Positions 1,657-62,659 of a stretch of DNA of 64,000 nucleotides are shown piece by piece (position 1 is the stretch's first letter; each line of letters starts with the position of its first letter). The position numbers were made by a program, and so were the translations under genes. A model generated the notes under the pieces. It had not been told where the DNA came from and did no database searches. It saw nothing but the letters and a program-made list of their open reading frames with translations. This DNA comes from Halothiobacillus sp. (GTDB lineage: Bacteria; Pseudomonadota; Gammaproteobacteria; Halothiobacillales; Halothiobacillaceae). Location: assembly GCA_016278265.1 (NCBI GenBank), contig JADQCE010000001.1:682001-746000 (forward strand). Reading direction: 5' to 3'.

Positions 1657-2784
1657 TCAGTCCCGGGGCAGGGCGCGGGTAATCACCGCACCGCCCAGGC
1701 AGATGGAACCATCATAGAACACCACCGATTGGCCGGGGGTGATGGCGCGTTGCGGCTCGGCGAACGTGGCGATCAGGCGATCGCCCGTCTGTTCGATGCT
1801 GACCGCCTGGTCGGGTTGCCGATAGCGGATCTTGGCGGTCAGTGGCCGGTCGGTCGGCGGCGGCTCGATCCAGTGGACCTGCTCGGCCTCCAGGCGGTCG
1901 GCGAACAGGGCCGGGTGGTTCCTCCCCTGGGCGACCAGCAGCGTGTTGGTCTCGAGATCCTTGCCCACCACGTACCACGGCGCATCGCCATGGGTCTTCG
2001 TGCCGCCGATACCCAACCCCTGGCGCTGGCCGATGGTGTGGTACATCAGACCCTGGTGGGTGCCTAGCCGTTCGCCCTCGAGGGTCTCGATCGGGCCCGG
2101 CTGGGCGGGCAGATAGGTCTTGAGGAAATCGGCAAACCGGCGCTCGCCGATGAAACAGATGCCGGTCGAATCCTTCTTGTCGGCCGTGATCAGATCGTGG
2201 GCAGCGGCGATCTCACGCACCCGCGGCTTTTCCAGCTCACCGACCGGGAAATAGGCCGCGCCCACCTGATCGCGCGTCAATGCGTGCAGGAAATAGCTCT
2301 GGTCCTTGTTGGCATCCACGCCCCGGGCCAGGTGCACGCCGGTCTCGCCATCGAGCCGCCGCACATAATGACCCGTGGCGATCGCATCCGCCCCCAGCGC
2401 CCGGGCATGGTCGAGAAAGGCGCGGAACTTGATCTCGCGGTTGCAGAGGATGTCCGGGTTGGGCGTGCGCCCGGCCTGGTATTCGGCCAGGAAGTGTTCG
2501 AAGACGCGGTCCCAGTACTCGCCGGCGAAATTGACGAAATGGAACTCGATGCCGAGCTTGTCGGCCACGGCCATGGCATCGAGCATGTCGTCCTTGGCGG
2601 CGCAGAAATCCTCGTCGTCGTCACCCTCCCAGTTCTTCATGAACAGGCCCTCGACGCGATAGCCGGCCTGTTTGAGGAGCAGGGCGGCCACCGAGGAGTC
2701 CACGCCGCCGGACATGCCCACCATGATGCGCGGGGCATCGGCCGGGGCCGGGGGGATCAGGTTGTCGAAGCGGGTATCGGTCAT
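1657..2784 (-). CDS. mnmA: tRNA-specific 2-thiouridylase MnmA
   Basis: MnmA activates U34 of tRNA-Lys, tRNA-Glu and tRNA-Gln with ATP and inserts sulfur delivered by the IscS/Tus relay. The 375-residue protein has the PP-loop SGGVDSS at residues 25-31. The first catalytic Cys is at about 114 in DILCNRE and the second at about 210 in STGICFIGE, with the usual spacing. The C-terminal beta-barrel ends in the conserved [10 protein letters not shown] stretch. The ATG at 2784 overlaps the stop of nudJ by one base, indicating translational coupling. The nudJ-mnmA-hflD order is common in gammaproteobacteria. Confidence 0.97.
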
Positions 2785-3509
2785 CAGAGCGAGTTCAGCA
2801 GGTCGAGGGGATAGCGGCGCCCCTGTTCGAAGTCGCGGATGGCGGCGGTGACGAACGGCGAGCGATGCGGAATGGTGGTGCGTTCGAGCGCCGCGCGGCC
2901 CATGAAATGCGCGGCGAGGATGCCATCGTCCAGCGGCTCGTCGTCCGGGGCCTCATTGATCTCGCCGATGATCGCCACCCGCAGCACGCGCCGCCCCTGG
3001 TGCGGGTTGTCATGGTACAGCCCCAGCAGTTCAGTCGGCTCGAAGGCAAAGCGGCTCTCCTCGCGCACCTCGCGGATCACCGCCTCGAGCAGGGTTTCGC
3101 CCGGCTCGACGTGCCCGGCTGGCTGGCAAAGGAAGGTCTGCACGAATGCCATGCCACTCTGGCCTGGCGAGCCGTTCGTGATCAAGGCGCGATGTCGCCG
3201 ACGTGCCGGCGGCCACGTCAAGACATCGCAACGCTGAGCACGGGCGGCCCGCCAGGCCCCTCTGGGCACGCGCTGAGCCGGACACCTGCTGCGTTGCTGT
3301 CCTTGGAAAGGGAATTGCCCTTCCGCGGCGGACAGTCGCCTTGCATCTGCCCGGCTCATCGCGCGCAGAGCGGTATGGCATTCGTGCAGACCTTCCTTCG
3401 GGTAGCGCTGGCCGTGGATCTGTTCCTCGACGATCAAGTACTCGTCGTCTCGATGGGCGATGCCCGCCACGGTAAGCGAGACAAGGGGGCGTTCGGTGGA
3501 ATGTTCCAT
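2784..3509 (-). CDS. nudJ: NudJ-like Nudix hydrolase carrying a 90-codon palindromic insertion
   Basis: The flanking parts match NudJ, a phosphatase acting on nucleotide and thiamine pyrophosphates that is typically encoded next to mnmA. The N-terminal strand reads [23 protein letters not shown]. The Nudix box begins [23 protein letters not shown], and the C-terminus GRRYPLDLL resembles that of E. coli NudJ. Between HGQRYP and CQPAGHVE, where E. coli NudJ continues directly (NGKALWNQPAGH), lie 90 extra residues. They are rich in Arg, Cys and Pro and have no relation to Nudix proteins. They correspond exactly to a 270-bp repeat at 3129-3398 that keeps the frame. Removing them gives about 151 residues from this start (E. 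coli NudJ has 153). The ATG at 3509 is chosen because it starts just before the first Nudix strand; an in-frame ATG at 3557 would add 16 residues. A TATAAT lies at 3516-3521. Whether the enlarged protein is active is unknown. Confidence 0.85.
3129..3398 (-). repeat. Palindromic mobile-like element, family A copy 1 (270 bp, inside nudJ)
   Basis: The two ends are inverted repeats of 33 bases (3129-3161 and 3366-3398), matching at 31 positions and beginning AAGGAAGGTCTGCACGAATG. The reverse complement of this copy aligns along its whole length, apart from small differences, with 60811-61082; I estimate roughly 80% identity by eye. Inside are further inverted arms, including a GAGCCGG pair and a GGCCTGGCG/CGCCAGGCC pair. 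The predicted fold is therefore a long terminal stem with two inner arms. The length is an exact multiple of three, so the nudJ frame continues through it. No transposase or target-site duplication is evident. I do not recognise the family. Confidence 0.9.
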
Positions 3510-3650
3510 GGGCTGATTATACCGGGGAAGGCAAGGGGTGCCGGTCGTGGGAGTCAATCGAGATAAATCGAATGCAAGCGTCGTAACGTCAAGACGTCAG
3601 GACGCTGCTACACTGTTGATCTGCTCGACATAGCCACCGGGAGCCCGAAC

Positions 3651-13171: not shown

Positions 13172-13183
13172 TTGTCACACATC

Positions 13184-13357
13184 GGACCGCGGAGTTGCAC
13201 TCCGCGTAACGGGGAGCCCAACTCGCCGGTCCAAGGCAGAGGAAGGCGGTCGACCGTTGGATCGTGGAGTTGCACTCCGCGTAACGGCGAGTCCAACTCG
13301 CCGGTCCCAAAGCAAAGAAGGCGGTCATCCCTTGGATCGTGGAGTTGCACTCCACGC
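13184..13357. repeat. REP array upstream of the RAYT gene (75-bp period)
   Basis: Two full units (13184-13232 and 13259-13307) and a half unit (13334-13357) begin at exact 75-base intervals. Each full unit consists of two adjacent hairpins: one with stem CGCGGAGT/ACTCCGCG and loop TGC, the other with GGCGAGT/ACTCGCC. The unit is bracketed by GGACC or GGATC and GGTCC. The spacers are also related to one another (a shared AAGGCGGTC). This is the structure of repetitive extragenic palindromes grouped as a BIME. Confidence 0.9.
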
Positions 13358-13537
13358 AATCACGCCCAAAAACGCACCTCCCACCAGTAAATCCCGCTCC
13401 GACCGCGCGCCTGGAACCCTGCGGACCAGCCAATGGCTCTTCCCGGAATAGGGCTTCACAATCAAACAGATCCACCACTTGCCCGCTCAACGCGCCCCCG
13501 GCACCATGCCCCTTGGAAAAAGCAAGGAGGTCGACGC

Positions 13538-14149
13538 ATGCCGGCAAGGACGCCCGCACCGAACCGTTGGACCTGCCGTCATCTACCGCATGTGGATGCG
13601 CCGGGTCACTTTCAGCATGTCGCATTCCATCTGGCCGACTCGTTGCCGCGTGCCGCATTGCTCCGAATGGAACGCGACCTTGCCCATTTGCCCGCTTACC
13701 AACGGTCGCAAACGAAAGCCCGCCGCATTGAGGTCATGCTCGATGCCGGGCGGGGGTCCTGCCTGCTGGCGCAGCCGACCTGCGCCCGAATAATGGTCGA
13801 AACGCTGTTGTTCGGCGACGGCACCCGCTACCAACTGCATGCGTGGGTGGTCATGCCGAACCACGTCCACGTGCTGGTGCGGCAAGATGAAAACCACCCC
13901 CTGTCACGCATCGTCCAGTCCTGGAAACGCCATTCCTCCCGTGAGATCCGGCGTCTCGGCAACGACGCGAATCGCCAAACTGCAGGCCCACATGCCGGCA
14001 TCTGGCAACGCGACTACTGGGACCGTTACATCCGAAACGATCGTCATTTCGCCGCAGTCGAAGAATATATTCGTCTAAACCCCGTCAAGGCCGGACTGGT
14101 GCCGACCCCAGAAGACTGGCCGTATGGCTCGGCAGGGCGGGGCGAGTAG
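13538..14149 (+). CDS. REP-associated tyrosine transposase (RAYT)
   Basis: RAYTs are single-copy Y1 HUH nucleases related to IS200/IS605 transposases. They bind and cut REP hairpins as single strands and are thought to spread them. The 203-residue protein contains the metal-binding HUH motif as His109-Val-His111 (MPNHVHVLV), the RAYT helix SRIVQSWKRHSS, the QRDYWDRYIRND region with the candidate nucleophile Tyr160, and the terminal EYIRLNPVKAGLV. The start at 13538 is chosen because AAGGAGG lies seven bases upstream; the same frame extends to 13433 without that support. REP arrays flank it on both sides, so this is a complete REP-RAYT unit. Confidence 0.93.
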   Translation: MPARTPAPNRWTCRHLPHVDAPGHFQHVAFHLADSLPRAALLRMERDLAHLPAYQRSQTKARRIEVMLDAGRGSCLLAQPTCARIMVETLLFGDGTRYQLHAWVVMPNHVHVLVRQDENHPLSRIVQSWKRHSSREIRRLGNDANRQTAGPHAGIWQRDYWDRYIRNDRHFAAVEEYIRLNPVKAGLVPTPEDWPYGSAGRGE

Positions 14150-14163
14150 GAAAGTAACCGGCT

Positions 14164-14453
14164 ATGGACCGCGGAGTTGCACTCCGCGCCACGGCGAGTG
14201 CAACTCGCCACTCCCACCACCAACCATGGACCGTGGAGTTGCACTCCACGTCTCGGCGAGTGCAACTCGCCGCTCCGACGAACCCTGGACCGCGGAGCTG
14301 CACTCCGCGCTGGCAAACCCAATCGCCGCTCCCAGCATCCCACCATGGACCGTGGAGTTTCACTCCACGCCGGCGAGTACAACTCGCCGCTCCAACGAAC
14401 CATAGACCGCGGAGTTGTACTCCGTGCCGGCAAATCCAACTCGCCAATTCAGT
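14164..14453. repeat. REP array downstream of the RAYT gene (about 60-bp period)
   Basis: Five units start near 14164, 14226, 14285, 14345 and 14402. Each carries the GGACCG(C/T)GGAGTTGCACTCC(A/G)CG hairpin. It is followed, in full or decayed form, by the CGGCGAGTGCAACTCGCC hairpin and CTCC. Units 3 and 5 have partly lost the second hairpin. All point the same way as the units before the transposase. The array ends about 70 bases before the glmS start, so it lies in the glmS leader or promoter region. Confidence 0.9.
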
Positions 14454-17270: not shown

Positions 17271-18566
17271 ATGACGACAAGCAACACATTCCATCCCCCC
17301 AAAGACGTCAAGATCGCCATGGTCGGTCTCGGTTACGTCGGTCTCCCGCTGGCCGTGGCTTTCGGCCGCGTCCAGTCCGTGGTCGGCTTCGATATCAACG
17401 CCAAGCGCATCGCTGAGCTGAAAAACGGTATCGACCACACCCGCGAGGTCGAGCCGAACGAACTGGTCGAGGCAACACAGCTTTGCTTCACCGACCGCCT
17501 GGAAGACATCGCCGACTGCAATGTCTTCATCGTCACCGTGCCCACGCCCATCGACCGCTATAAGCGCCCGGACCTCAGTCCGCTAATCGCTGCGTCTAAA
17601 ACCGTGGGGAAGGTGCTGAAAGAAGGCGACGTGGTCATCTACGAATCCACCGTCTACCCCGGTGCCACCGAGGACGACTGTGTGCCGGTGCTTGAAGAGA
17701 CCAGCGGGCTGACGTTCAATCAGGACTTCTTCGCCGGGTACAGCCCGGAGCGGATCAACCCGGGTGACAAGGAACACCGCGTCGCCGATATCATGAAGGT
17801 CACGGCCGGCTCTACGCCTGAGGCCGCCAAGTTCATCGATGGCCTTTATCGCCGCGTCATCACGGCCGGCACGCACCTGGCCCCGGCCATCCGTGTCGCC
17901 GAGGCCGCCAAGGTGATCGAGAACACTCAGCGGGACGTCAATATCGCGTTGGTCAACGAACTGGCCATGCTGTTCAACAAGATGGGCGTCGACACCCAGG
18001 CAGTCCTCGAGGCCGCCGCCACCAAGTGGAATTTCCTGCCCTTCAAGCCCGGATTGGTCGGCGGGCACTGCATCGGCGTTGACCCGTACTACCTCACTCA
18101 GAAAGCCGAGGAGGTCGGTTATCATCCCGAAATGATCCTTGCCGGGCGGCGCACCAACGACGGCATGGGCGAATACGTCGCCGCAAAGGTGGTGCAGTTG
18201 ATGACCCGCAAGCGCGTGCAGGTCGTGGATTCCAAGGTGCTGATCCTTGGACTCACCTTCAAGGAAAACTGCCCGGATCTCCGCAATACCCGCGTGATCG
18301 ACGTAATCCGAGAATTGCGTGACTATAACGTTGACGTCCACGTCCATGACCCCTGGGCGGATCCCTCCGAGGCTTGCGATGAATACGATATCTCCCTGGT
18401 CGATCAACCGGCACAGGGCGACTATGACGCGGTCGTGATCGCAGTCGCTCACGATCAGTTCGTGCGTATGGGAGCGGAAGGAATACGGGCCCTCACCCGG
18501 AATGGCGGGCTCGTTTACGACATTAAGCACGTGCTTGGTCGTGAGGAAAGCGACGGCCGGCTGTAG
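17271..18566 (+). CDS. wbpA: UDP-N-acetylglucosamine 6-dehydrogenase (WbpA/TviB type)
   Basis: This nucleotide-sugar dehydrogenase oxidises C6 of UDP-GlcNAc twice with NAD, giving UDP-GlcNAcA, the first step to UDP-ManNAc3NAcA. The Rossmann motif [13 protein letters not shown] is near residue 19. The catalytic Cys is at about 266 in [12 protein letters not shown], and the C-terminal UDP-binding domain carries [17 protein letters not shown]. At 431 residues it fits the WbpA/WbpO/TviB group rather than the UDP-glucose dehydrogenases. The adjacent wbpB, wbpD, wbpE and wbpI homologues support UDP-GlcNAc as substrate. Confidence 0.92.
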
Positions 18567-18577
18567 CCCGCGCCTTG

Positions 18578-18626
18578 GGAGCGGCGAGTTGCACTCGCCG
18601 TCACGCGGAGTGCAACTCCGCGATCC
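18578..18626 (-). repeat. Single REP unit, inverted orientation
   Basis: One complete unit with both hairpins (GGCGAGTTGCACTCGCC then CGCGGAGTGCAACTCCGCG) lies between wbpA and wbpB. It is the reverse complement of the units beside the RAYT gene and sits 12 bases after the wbpA stop. It is a dispersed member of the family, probably mobilised in trans. Confidence 0.88.
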
Positions 18627-18782
18627 ATAGGGCTGGGATGAGCGCCTCTAGGCTCGATGCCATCGGTCTCGCACCAAATCGAGTGGGTCGGGCTTGGCAG
18701 CGGCAGCCCGGCGTAAGGGCTCCTCCTATCCGCCGACGACACAGCAAGACTTTTTGAACCTACCCAACAAAGACAAGACCAC

Positions 18783-33408: not shown

Positions 33409-33438
33409 CGGCAGTCGTTTTGGTGCCTTGGTGGATCT

Positions 33439-33531
33439 CTATCGGCGAGTACAACTCGCCGCTCCCGCCCGATGACGGGTGGCTTGGGCCTTGGAGTTGC
33501 CTCCGCGCCGGCGAGTGTAACTCGCCGCTCC
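33439..33531 (+). repeat. Two decayed REP units between pglE and wbpM
   Basis: A half unit with the GGCGAGTACAACTCGCC hairpin lies at 33439-33465. A second unit at 33490-33531 has a damaged first hairpin (GGAGTTGCCTCCGCG) and an intact second (GGCGAGTGTAACTCGCC), ending CTCC. They have the same orientation as the RAYT-flanking arrays. The rest of the 290-base gap before wbpM shows no gene. Confidence 0.8.
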
Positions 33532-33694
33532 AAGGGTTGCGGTGCCCGCGTCGTTTGTGGGTTGGGCTTTTAGTTCTTCTGGCGGCCGGGAGGCCGGTTT
33601 TCCCGTATTCTCGCGGCGGTGTGACAGAATCCCGGTTTCTGTGGGCGCGGCCGCTTAGCGGTGTGCGGTTTCCGATTTGCATGGTAGATATTCA

Positions 33695-35608: not shown

Positions 35609-36304
35609 TGCGGGAGAGGCTTCTCACCGTATAGGGCTGCAGCTGCTAACGCCCCTCCGCCGTCATTCCCGCGGAAGCGGGAACCCAGATCAGTGCTCAG
35701 GTGGCTTCGTCCGGTGGATCCCCGCTTTCGCGGGGATGACGGACCGGTGGTTGATTTGGGGCTGTTGCGGGGGTGTCTTGGGTGCGGATTCTTCTGACCG
35801 GAGCGGCTCGGCCGACAAGCGTCATTCCCGTGTACGCGGGAATCCAGGCCCGTGTTCCGGTGGCTTCGATATGTGGATCCCCACTTCCGCGGGGATGACG
35901 GGCGAGGAACGAAGAGGATGTTTGGATGACCGTGGTGTTCTACACGAGGCGGGCGACATCCTCCGGCCCCACCGCGCCGTCGATCTCGTGCCGTTCTTGT
36001 GGGGATGTTGCCTCCGGTGAGGCCCTCTATTCGGCACATGAAAACGACTCTCTGTCATTCCCGCGAAGGCGGGAATCCAGGGGTTGCTGATCTGGCAGCG
36101 TCCTATGGATTGCCACGGCAGTGCGCATTACGAAGTGTCGCTGTGCGGACATCGAGCGCAATTGACCAACCCCAACCCTCGGTTTTTTGGTCCTGTCTCC
36201 TCGAACGTGCGCTGTGGCCTGCTATCCTCTTACGAGCTTTCGAACCTCCCGGCCGTGGGCGGGGAGGGCATCCTTGTTTGAGCAACCAAGAAGGAGATTT
36301 GTAT
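35609..36304. repeat. Gene-free stretch with five dRS3-like palindromes
   Basis: No plausible gene is present. Palindromes with the core GTCATTCCC(N8)GGGAATCC or its GATCCCC variant lie at 35661-35687, 35714-35742, 35819-35848, 35872-35902 and 36054-36079. The first four form two head-to-head pairs of about 80 bases, each enclosing a similar spacer (GTGGCTTCG). The last, single copy lies 225 bases upstream of the superoxide dismutase gene, whose promoter must lie between. Confidence 0.8.
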
Positions 36305-40057: not shown

Positions 40058-40110
40058 TTTGGCCTTCGGTGCCTCCATGTCGACCAATTTGCCAAATTGA
40101 GGCCTCGTAT

Positions 40111-40343
40111 GGATTCCCGCTTTCGCGGGAATGACGAGACTGTTCACCACCGTCATCCCCACGCAAGCGGGGATCCCGCCGTTCGCCTTGAACGAAGTCC
40201 AGCACGTGGGGCGGTGGTCTTGTCGTTCACCCGTCCTTGGTGATGGCGCACCACTGATCGTCATCCCCCCGCGAAAGCGGGGATCTACTCTCTTTTGCTG
40301 CCTGATGACATGTCTGGATTCCCGCTTGCGCGGGAATGACGGG
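40111..40343. repeat. Four dRS3-like palindromes between convergent genes
   Basis: Palindromes at 40111-40136, 40151-40177, 40259-40285 and 40316-40343 alternate in orientation (GGATTCCCGC...GGGAATGACG, then CGTCATCCCC...GGGGATCC). They fill the space between the ends of the FAH gene and the beta-CASP gene. The imperfect symmetry and mixed ATTCCC/ATCCCC cores match those at 35.7 and 43.2 kb. Confidence 0.85.
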
Positions 40344-43138: not shown

Positions 43139-43191
43139 GTCCAGGTTCGATCTTTCGGGGGTAACCGGGAACGGTGATGGCCTCGCTTGCT

Positions 43192-43260
43192 GGGTTCCCG
43201 CTTTCGCGGGAACGACGTGAGGGGGCTCGTCGTTGTCATCCCCGCGAAAGCGGGGATCCA
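43192..43260. repeat. dRS3-like palindrome pair
   Basis: Two palindromes (43192-43217 GGTTCCCGC...GCGGGAACGACG and 43235-43260 GTCATCCCCGCG...GGGGATCCA) lie head to head in the 208-base space between the DUF3024 gene and the convergent helicase gene. Confidence 0.85.
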
Positions 43261-43314
43261 TCTTCCCCGGCTCCGTTTTAAGCGAGTCGGCCAGTTGATG
43301 CGAAGGGCCAACCA

Positions 43315-59125: not shown

Positions 59126-60727
59126 TCATTCCCACTCGATGGTGCCGGGCGGCTTGCCGGTGACGTCGTAGACGACCCGCGAGATGCCGCGGACTTCGTT
59201 AACGATGCGCAGCGAGACCTTTTCCAGGAAGTCGTAGGGCAGGCGGGCCCAGCGGGCGGTCATGAAGTCGATCGTCTCGACCGCGCGCAGGGCGACCACG
59301 TAGTCGTAGCGCCGACCATCGCCCATCACGCCCACGGAACGGACCGGCAGGAACACGGCGAAGGCCTGCGAGACCTGGTCGTAGAGGCCCGCTTCACGCA
59401 GCTCGTGGATGAAGATGGCATCGGCGCGGCGCAGCAGTTCGGCGTATTCGTGCTTGACCTCGCCGAGGATGCGCACGCCCAGCCCCGGGCCGGGGAAGGG
59501 GTGGCGCATGATCATCTCGGAAGGCAGGCCCAGTTCCAGGCCGATCTGGCGGACCTCGTCCTTGAACAGCTCGCGCAGCGGCTCGACCAGGCCGAGCTTC
59601 ATGTGCTCGGGCAGGCCGCCGACGTTGTGGTGTGACTTGATCACGTGGGCCTTGCCGGTCTTGGAGCCGGCCGACTCGATCACGTCGGGGTAGATGGTGC
59701 CCTGGGCCAGCCATTGGGCGTTCTCGCGCCTGGAGGCCTGTTCGTCGAAGATGTCGATGAAGGTGTTGCCGATGATCTTGCGCTTTTTCTCGGGGTCGGC
59801 CTCGCCGGACAAACGGCCGAGGAACTGGTCCTCGGCATCGACGCGGATCACGCGCACGCCCAGGTGCTCGCCGAAGGTGCGCATGACCTGGTCGCCTTCG
59901 CCCTCGCGCAGCAGGCCGTTGTCGACGAAGATGCAGGTGAGCTGGTCGCCGATGGCGCGGTGGAGCAGGGCGGCGACGACCGACGAGTCCACGCCGCCGG
60001 ACAGGCCGAGGATGACTTCCTCGTCCCCGACCTGCTCGCGGACTTGGTCGATCATCGTCTCGATGATGGCCTCGGAGCGCCACAGCCCCTGCGTGTCGCA
60101 GATCTCGCGAACGAAGCGATGGATGATGCGCGCGCCCTGACGGGTGTGCGTGACCTCGGGGTGGAACTGCAGGCCGTAGAAATGGCGAGACTCGTCGGCC
60201 ATGCCGGCGATCGGCGCGTTGTCCGAGGAGGCCATCAGCTTGAAGCCTTCGGGCAGGTCGACCACGTGATCGCCGTGGCTCATCCAGACGTCCAAAAGCC
60301 CGAAGCCTTCCTCGGTGACCTCGTCCTCGATGTCCTTGAGCAATGCCGTGTGGCCGCGGGCGCGCACCTTGGCAAAGCCGAACTCCTGGTGGCTGGCGTT
60401 CTCGACCCTGCCGCCGAGCTGGGCGGCCATGGTCTGCATGCCGTAGCAGATGCCCAGCACCGGCACGTCCAGGGTGAACACCAACTCGGGCGCGCAGGGG
60501 GCGTTCTGTGGGTCGATCACCGACTCGGGGCCGCCGGAGAGGATGATGCCGGTGGGATTGAAGTCACGGACGAAGGCGTTGTCGACATCCCAGGAATGGA
60601 TTTCGCAGTACACCCGCGCCTCGCGGACGCGCCGGGCGATCAGTTGCGTGTACTGCGAGCCGAAATCCAGGATCAGGATGCGCTCGGCGTGGATATCGGG
60701 ATGTGGGATGGTCGAGGAAGCGGTCAT
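59126..60727 (-). CDS. guaA: GMP synthase (glutamine-hydrolysing) GuaA
   Basis: GuaA aminates XMP to GMP with glutamine and ATP. The 533-residue protein has the class I amidotransferase site Cys in [10 protein letters not shown] near residue 100 and the His/Glu pair in [10 protein letters not shown]. The ATP pyrophosphatase motif [19 protein letters not shown] follows near 244, and the dimerisation domain ends with [10 protein letters not shown], the invariant C-terminus. It is downstream of guaB on the same strand; the intergenic space holds a family A palindromic element. Confidence 0.97.
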
Positions 60728-60810
60728 CGTCAGGTCCGTGTTGTTCAGGCAAGGGCGGCTTGGCCCTGTAACAAGTCGACCCGGCAGGCTAGGCCGGGTC
60801 GATGGGTGTT

Positions 60811-61082
60811 AGGAAAACTCTGCACGAATGTCATGTCGCTCTGCGTGCCTTGAGCCGGGGCAGATGCAAGGCGTTCGTCCGTCGCGGAAGAGTGGTTCTC
60901 TTTCCAAGGACGATAACGCAGCAGATGCCCCGGCTCAAAGCACGCCCTTCGGGGCCTGGCGAGCCGCCCGTGCTCGGCGTTGCGCCGTCTTGACGTGGTC
61001 ACCGACACGCCGGCGACGACGCGCCTTGATCACGAACGGCTCGCCAGGCCAGAGCGGCATGACATTCGTGCAGAGTTTCCCT
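60811..61082 (+). repeat. Palindromic mobile-like element, family A copy 2 (272 bp, between guaB and guaA)
   Basis: Terminal inverted repeats of 33 bases (60811-60843 and 61050-61082) match at 31 positions and share CTGCACGAATG(T/C)CATG with the nudJ copy. Inner arms are clear here. One pairs GCGTGCCTTGAGCCGGGGCA (about 60844-60863) with an inverse near 60930, one mismatch in 20. Another pairs GGCCTGGCGAGCCG (60953-60966) with a perfect inverse at 61037-61050. The whole could fold as a three-way junction. The two-base length difference shifts the frame midway relative to the nudJ copy, so the element itself is not coding. Confidence 0.9.
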
Positions 61083-61111
61083 GGGCACCCCGCGGCGGGC
61101 GGGGTCGTGGA

Positions 61112-62659
<1,548 letters not shown>

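Follow-up and report, generated by a model that had tools for sequence, protein, structure and literature searches.

A structured MITE inserted between guaB and guaA belongs to a dispersed element family of Guyparkeria and relatives with co-evolving ends

We analysed an inverted-repeat element that separates the purine genes guaB and guaA in a 64,000-nucleotide stretch of a Halothiobacillus sp. genome (hereafter the window; Table 1). An original prediction, made from the letters alone, had described an element with 33-bp ends and inner hairpins at this place. The arms at 60811-60843 and 61050-61082 are indeed 33 nt long and 94% complementary, and they enclose hairpin A (inverted repeat 60843-60880/60908-60945, 76%) and hairpin B (60953-60975/61028-61050, 87%). 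From either strand the element folds into one Y shape, an outer stem bearing two hairpins, with energies of -195.4 and -188.5 kcal/mol for the two strands (z = -15.7 and -15.4; none of 200 shuffles per strand folded as well). Both its structure and its repetition are far beyond chance. At the Rfam gathering threshold the window yielded a tRNA only and nothing at the guaBA element, where four sub-threshold matches to miRNA models (60700-61200, E 0.029-0.51) were taken as generic hairpins.

Table 1. Features of the guaBA locus and the second copy of the element in the window
Feature	Position	Strand	Basis
guaA, GMP synthase, downstream in transcription	59126..60727	-	Pfam GMP_synt_C and GATase
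Short native hairpin TCGACCCGGC..GCCGGGTCGA before guaA	60776..60802	-	By eye, gap alignment of ten genus genomes
Left target repeat TTAG	60809..60812		Empty site TTCG in closest congener L175; family consensus CTAG
Mobile element proper, 268 bp	60813..61080	+ (reference orientation)	Empty site and family-wide 4-bp target repeat
Left terminal arm (outer stem 5' side)	60813..60843	+	Inverted-repeat search, alignment
Inner hairpin A	60843..60945	+	Inverted repeat, fold, consensus structure of copies
Inner hairpin B	60953..61050	+	Inverted repeat, fold, consensus structure of copies
Right terminal arm (outer stem 3' side)	61050..61080	+	Inverted-repeat search, alignment
Right target repeat CTGG, unlike left copy	61081..61084		Empty-site alignment, family flanks
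guaB, IMP dehydrogenase, upstream in transcription	61112..62644	-	Pfam IMPDH and CBS
Second copy at NUDIX (nudJ) gene, opposite orientation to guaBA copy, without matching target repeat (CAAA / TTCG)	3131..3396	-	

A second copy lies at the nudJ gene, as had also been noticed, with a similarity estimated by eye at about 80% in opposite orientation; BLAST gives 84% identity over query positions 9-270, in that orientation. The two copies align as three ungapped inverted pieces of 81-85%, which fits the earlier remark that their frame relation changes midway, and what was seen is consistent with an element that is structural rather than coding. At nudJ itself, the upstream reading frame of the NUDIX ORF (2784-3557, minus strand) stays open through the copy; the Pfam NUDIX match spans residues 144-224 only, so the true NUDIX start may lie after the element.

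The element at guaBA is an insertion. Located through the first 100 residues of GuaA, which gave one strong match each in 10 of the 11 genus genomes, the guaB-guaA gap measures 384 bp here and 111, 111, 112, 112, 113, 124, 124, 170 and 181 bp in nine congeners, which bears out the gap of about 112 bases that had been predicted for the locus without the element; the remaining genome, a 64%-complete draft (G003), gave a weak GuaA match of 25% identity and was left out. The site is empty in all nine, and in the closest it reads GGGTGTTCGGCACCCC. Since 384 - 112 = 272 = 268 + 4, the difference corresponds to a 268-bp element plus a 4-bp duplication of a TTCG-like sequence, although the repeat is imperfect today (TTAG and CTGG against TTCG in the empty site).

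The duplication is clearer across the family. When the 4 bases adjoining the GGAA...TTCC core were compared between the two sides, 35 of 128 independent loci had identical flanks, against 8.6 expected, and 0 of 2000 shuffles reached that number; the other 93 loci had no identical pair. No clear excess appeared at widths of 1-3 or 5-7, and the position preferences of the target spell CTAG. A first subset gave 25 of 65 against 7.2 expected; it comprised the 79 stretches of a paired-end scan after removal of one with a short flank (L090) and 13 with poor arm matching (L088, L089, L092, L094, L099, L101, L103, L107, L112, L122, L126, L133 and L139). L112 nevertheless entered the later set of 147 copies because both of its ends are GGAACCTCTGCACGAAT.

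That scan covered genome contigs from one genome per species in 84,980 species, and 66 of its 79 stretches come from records titled Guyparkeria, Halothiobacillus or Halothiobacillaceae. In the element's own genome, BLAST returned 33 rows, inverse self-matches included, of which 12 (among them the guaBA element) span at least 260 of the 272 bases, and 27 copies have both ends, although a 115-bp one among these is doubtful. For the end core CTGCACGAA we counted 36 + 34 occurrences, compared with 10 + 17 for the reversed control. Requiring GGAANNNCTGCACGAAT-like sequence at both ends gave a set of 147 distinct copies in all; they are 42-359 bp long, with 116 of them at 265-268 bp, and reduce to 129 independent loci. 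These copy numbers are minimum values, the scan having been confined to fetched loci. The original prediction of a repeated structural element splitting guaB from guaA thus holds for a dispersed family, and further copies, whose absence from this and related genomes was to speak against it, are abundant in both.

With at most 13 candidates scored per genome, BLAST recovered the element from every genus genome but G003 (10 of 11). Beyond the genus it recovered none from the 16 further genomes of Halothiobacillaceae and one marginal match (E = 9e-4) from 30 genomes of other families. The end motif alone is present in 14 of the 27 Halothiobacillaceae genomes and in 6 of 369 in a sample of the class, and paired ends also occur in a record titled Nitrosomonas europaea (L112). 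Viral contigs contained 27 stretches with the end motif and none with an inward-facing pair; among plasmids and phages the best listed match had an E of about 0.07, and in no record did one place reach 80% coverage. The element is short and lacks a transposase gene of its own, for which 268 bp would not suffice, and terminal inverted repeats, a target duplication with empty sites and dispersed copies are all present. It is therefore a member of a dispersed transposon-like family, a structured MITE, of the sulfur-oxidising genus Guyparkeria, as the genus is named from record titles, and relatives. Searches of the literature on Guyparkeria repeats and Halothiobacillus inverted repeats, mostly outside subscription journals, showed no report of it among the papers listed, and the main text of the genus pangenome paper (PMC9032823) makes no mention of transposases, mobile elements, insertion sequences or MITEs. 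The family is unreported in the literature searched; structured bacterial MITEs are already known as a class.

Several copies vary in form. The copy in L125 carries CTACACGTAT on both arms, so that its end motif is rewritten and its arms still match. Another Halothiobacillaceae genus has elements of 152-173 bp (L359 in G021, L365 and L368 in G019) with unlike left and right ends, one of which is mirrored locally as GGAAGGTCTGC..GCAGACCTTCC. At the orthologous site L095/L239, a 266-bp and a 92-bp copy share the same ends, indicating an internal deletion or gain. Finally, CTGAAG/CTTCAG replaces CTCTG/CAGAG where the outer stem meets the interior, on both arms in L100, L102, L138, L280 and L300, and on one arm only in L072, L075, L109 and L117.

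A target duplication of fixed length is the mark of a DDE transposase, and the fixed 4-bp duplication leads us to infer such an enzyme as the mobiliser. In a search that covered three Pfam families in the 11 genus genomes and the fetched loci, we found no autonomous partner with the same ends. PF13546 was found in 0 of 11 genomes, PF05598 in one (G003 only) and PF01609 in one, as an unrelated IS4-type gene in G000 whose surroundings contain no element ends; the IS4-type gene (L183) had no plasmid match. Among end pairs 430-3500 bp apart in fetched non-viral loci, four stretches were followed up by ORF lists, and no transposase was recognised in them by eye. The loci examined from other carriers of the end motif, namely G015, G019, G021 and G024 (other genus of the family), G172 and the genome of L112, held no full IS; in other genera of the family and in G172 the scan covered the end motif only. 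The mobiliser would act in trans and may now be lost, rare or too diverged to find.

The two ends of one copy co-evolve. The ten core positions CTGCACGAAT were compared in the 141 copies that reach 150 bp or more (1410 cells). We counted 19 changes on the left arm only, 26 on the right only, 30 matching double changes and 0 other double changes, where the make-up of the columns predicts 1.4 matching ones. With orthologues reduced to one, 124 independent loci gave 19, 24, 27 and 0, against 1.3 expected. The 27 matching changes represent 13 distinct combinations of position and base, so shared ancestry alone is insufficient to explain them, although it still inflates the count. Among the variable positions, 127 of 130 copies have matching arms at position 18 (48.6 expected) and 125 at position 20 (47.8 expected). 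At position 23 the arms match no more often than expected (53 against 59.8). Counting G-U, the arms pair at 97% in register and at 30-45% when slid by 1-3 columns.

Changes in place were followed in 24 orthologous pairs, which are not independent and include one ambiguous pair (L278/L004). Of the changes in their outer 22 positions, 16 are confined to the left arm and 14 to the right; 7 are matched doubles and 1 is another double, where 1.0 double change is expected. The seven matched changes come down to three distinct events. At position 8, L260 and L282 have T and L265 and L003 have C; at position 18, L068 and L316 have T and L308 has G; the third event, at position 14, belongs to the ambiguous pair. 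Replacement of one copy by another could mimic such compensation. Out of 17 clusters, we accepted 12 as one insertion each; those set aside were three of neighbouring copies within one locus (L075, L117, L129), one of different sites (L294/L312) and one that is ambiguous (L278/L281/L004). The interior can also be reversed: that of L111 has to be inverted to align with those of L074 and L120, and then does so at 97% identity, while the near flanks are 92-97% identical. L278/L004 offers a possible second flip, with 86% inverted identity, a downstream near flank at 0.90 and an upstream one at 0.54.

Homogenisation of the arms at the DNA level would account for their matching and would also explain the interior flip. 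One arm would template the other, by template switching or gene conversion, and the arms would stay complementary. Template switching between inverted repeats is described as yielding both homogenised arms and inverted spacers in passages of PMC8604942 and PMC8794818, and the yeast data presented in the former favour short spacers. This counts against it here, where the spacer between the element's arms is 206 nt, unless the inner hairpins fold the spacer away, which could bring the arms together.

The distribution of mismatches, compared on the reference strand over 78 independent rows of the main subfamily, bears on the level at which pairing is kept. In the outer stem, the 26 columns with a Watson-Crick majority contain 27 GU and 22 AC (p = 0.57), and inclusion of two columns with near-fixed mismatches (24:263, where 64 of 78 rows have A-C, and 27:260, where 59 have G-U) brings the count to 86 of each. 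Such a balance agrees with a process indifferent to strand, and the two persistent mismatches show that homogenisation, if acting, misses some positions; the window copy has G-C at both. The corresponding columns of hairpin A contain 94 GU against 32 AC (p = 3e-8) and the 21 of hairpin B 68 against 29 (p = 9e-5), an excess that is carried by few columns with non-independent cells and is tilted by the choice of columns from an RNA fold, which admits GU but not AC. In a subset of 16 of the 21 columns of B, the count was 23 to 24, which the full set reverses. The absence of a strand preference in the outer stem, together with the interior flip, favours homogenisation at the DNA level, while the GU excess in A and B, the two near-fixed mismatches and an orientation bias among copies speak against it and leave room for some RNA-level constraint; on the specific point that the arms are kept complementary by DNA-level copying rather than by RNA selection, we regard the scales as close to level.

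The alternative of an element retained for its function as structured RNA, for instance an RNase III processing site or a 3'-UTR stabiliser whose pairing is maintained by selection on the transcript, draws on several of these observations. Matched double changes exceed expectation throughout (156 against 34.3 in the outer stem, 73 against 22.6 in A, 74 against 25.3 in 16 columns of B), the folds are very stable, and the GU excess in A and B is what selection on reference-strand RNA would produce. Furthermore, copies between tandem genes are sense in 37 cases and antisense in 17 (p = 0.009), gene orientation being called by a home-made codon-usage method, which gave no call at 29 of 138 sites and passed over nine whose flanks were short; the window copy has the minority, antisense orientation. 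However, such selection does not predict the balanced mismatches of the outer stem or an A-C pair fixed in most rows, and the excess in A ignores gene orientation (26 GU and 17 AC in sense copies, 12 and 3 in antisense ones, all small numbers). Copies also lie between genes called divergent (31) or convergent (14), and the nine congeners with a measured gap do without an insertion at guaBA. We consider this explanation unlikely overall, even if it has a real claim on part of the data.

A second alternative is spread that depends on shape, in which the mobiliser or the copying process recognises or passes through a folded single strand and matched arms outweigh the exact letters. The matched, rewritten arms of L125 and the locally mirrored ends in the other genus point in this direction, and if it were true, arm correction and flipping would be by-products of movement rather than of ordinary replication. 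We give this idea a slim chance. Slimmer still is the chance that the interior is a programmed invertible switch, flipped by a recombinase acting on the inverted ends. Its case is L111 against L074 and L120, with the same flanks and an inverted interior, and perhaps L278/L004, but the 12 accepted orthologous clusters include one clear flip, no promoter pattern appears at 60600-61300, and inversion has already been reported for Correia elements, as noted in PMC10969869.

REP and BIME elements are moved by RAYT proteins, with a RAYT in the carriers and no target duplication. That the present element is of this type, moved by a Y1 transposase, seems highly improbable. It is a palindromic intergenic repeat, and Y1_Tnp genes occur in 6 of the 11 genus genomes, one of them within the window; yet four of the ten carriers (G004, G005, G006 and G008) have no Y1_Tnp match at E <= 0.001, G006 and G008 being drafts less than 90% complete, the family makes a 4-bp target duplication, and the palindromic repeat beside the window's RAYT is a different one. 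This IS200-like, RAYT-like gene (13433-14149, plus strand, Pfam E = 3e-12) is accompanied by the repeat GGACCGCGGAGTTGCACTCCGCG / CGGCGAGTGCAACTCGCCG at 13176-13356 and 14158-14452, found again at 18553-18652 and 33435-33536, an arrangement that resembles a RAYT accompanied by REP elements. A further palindromic repeat, GTCATTCCCGCG..CGCGGGAATGACG, has several paired copies at 35661-36081, 40098-40341 and 43179-43262. Local duplication of the nudJ copy, or chance similarity, might be suggested by two copies in one 64-kb window, but it is already refuted by the many further copies in this genome and its congeners, of which the closest (L002, 91%) lies on the same contig outside the window and surpasses the nudJ copy.

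We therefore consider it likely that the element is a non-autonomous transposon, a structured MITE placed by a DDE transposase, with its arms homogenised more probably at the DNA level. A DDE-type transposase would have placed it between guaB and guaA with a 4-bp CTAG-like duplication, probably since the divergence of this species from the congeners sampled. In the guaBA transcript the insert would form a large double-stranded hairpin. An effect on guaA expression, for which the original prediction suggested a transcript hairpin or termination, is plausible by analogy: RNase III cuts Correia elements in transcripts, and ERIC alters how stable a transcript is, according to sections of PMC10969869 and PMC2229807; from these analogies, processing between guaB and guaA is our first guess, and cleavage or a change in stability there would be the likeliest effect, rather than termination. 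A pattern scan of 60600-61300 found 0 terminator-like and 0 promoter-like signals where shuffles give 0.5 and 0.1, and so says little. Additionally, the short native hairpin before guaA is present in all ten aligned gaps and is left intact by the insertion; it may be a leader or attenuator of guaA.

The family provides many natural copies of one long-armed inverted repeat in sequenced congeners, some of them orthologous. It makes testable whether paired changes in a stem arise from RNA selection or from DNA template switching, and it warns against taking compensatory changes by themselves as proof of a functional RNA. Locally, the guaBA site shows cleanly how a MITE has entered a conserved pair of purine genes.

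Among known insertion sequences, IS5 has a YTAR target and a GGAAGGTGCGAA-like end. IS701 resembles the element in its target duplication, which is exactly four bp in almost all cases according to PMC2266710. IS701 and the IS5 subgroup are possible parents; in the 11 genus genomes no such IS carrying the element's ends was found (PF13546 in none, PF05598 and PF01609 in one each, the surroundings of the latter without ends). The CIR elements of Caulobacter and Brucella likewise have two hairpin arms and a linker, but a footnoted table entry in PMC2229807 marks them as lacking a terminal inverted repeat, whereas here a stem formed by the 5' and 3' ends encloses both arms. ERIC, or IRU, of enterobacteria is similarly an intergenic MITE that can lie between co-transcribed genes and alter transcript stability (excerpts of PMC2229807 and PMC10969869); it differs in its 127 bp, its 7-bp terminal repeat and its 5'-TA-3' termini (PMC2229807).

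The Correia elements (NEMIS) of Neisseria are likewise small non-coding inverted repeats with many copies and a transcript hairpin (parts of PMC2649163, PMC10969869 and PMC2229807), with symmetric end variants, reported inversion and, in the passages of PMC2649163 and PMC10969869 drawn on here, no mobilising mechanism determined. They are mostly 104-108 or 153-157 bp long (PMC2649163) with 5'-TA-3' termini (PMC2229807), in contrast to 268 bp and a 4-bp CTAG-like duplication, and the two inner hairpins give the present element its Y shape. Co-evolution of the arms is the point worth following in the present family; symmetric end variants and inversion are already shown for Correia elements in sections of PMC2649163 and PMC10969869.
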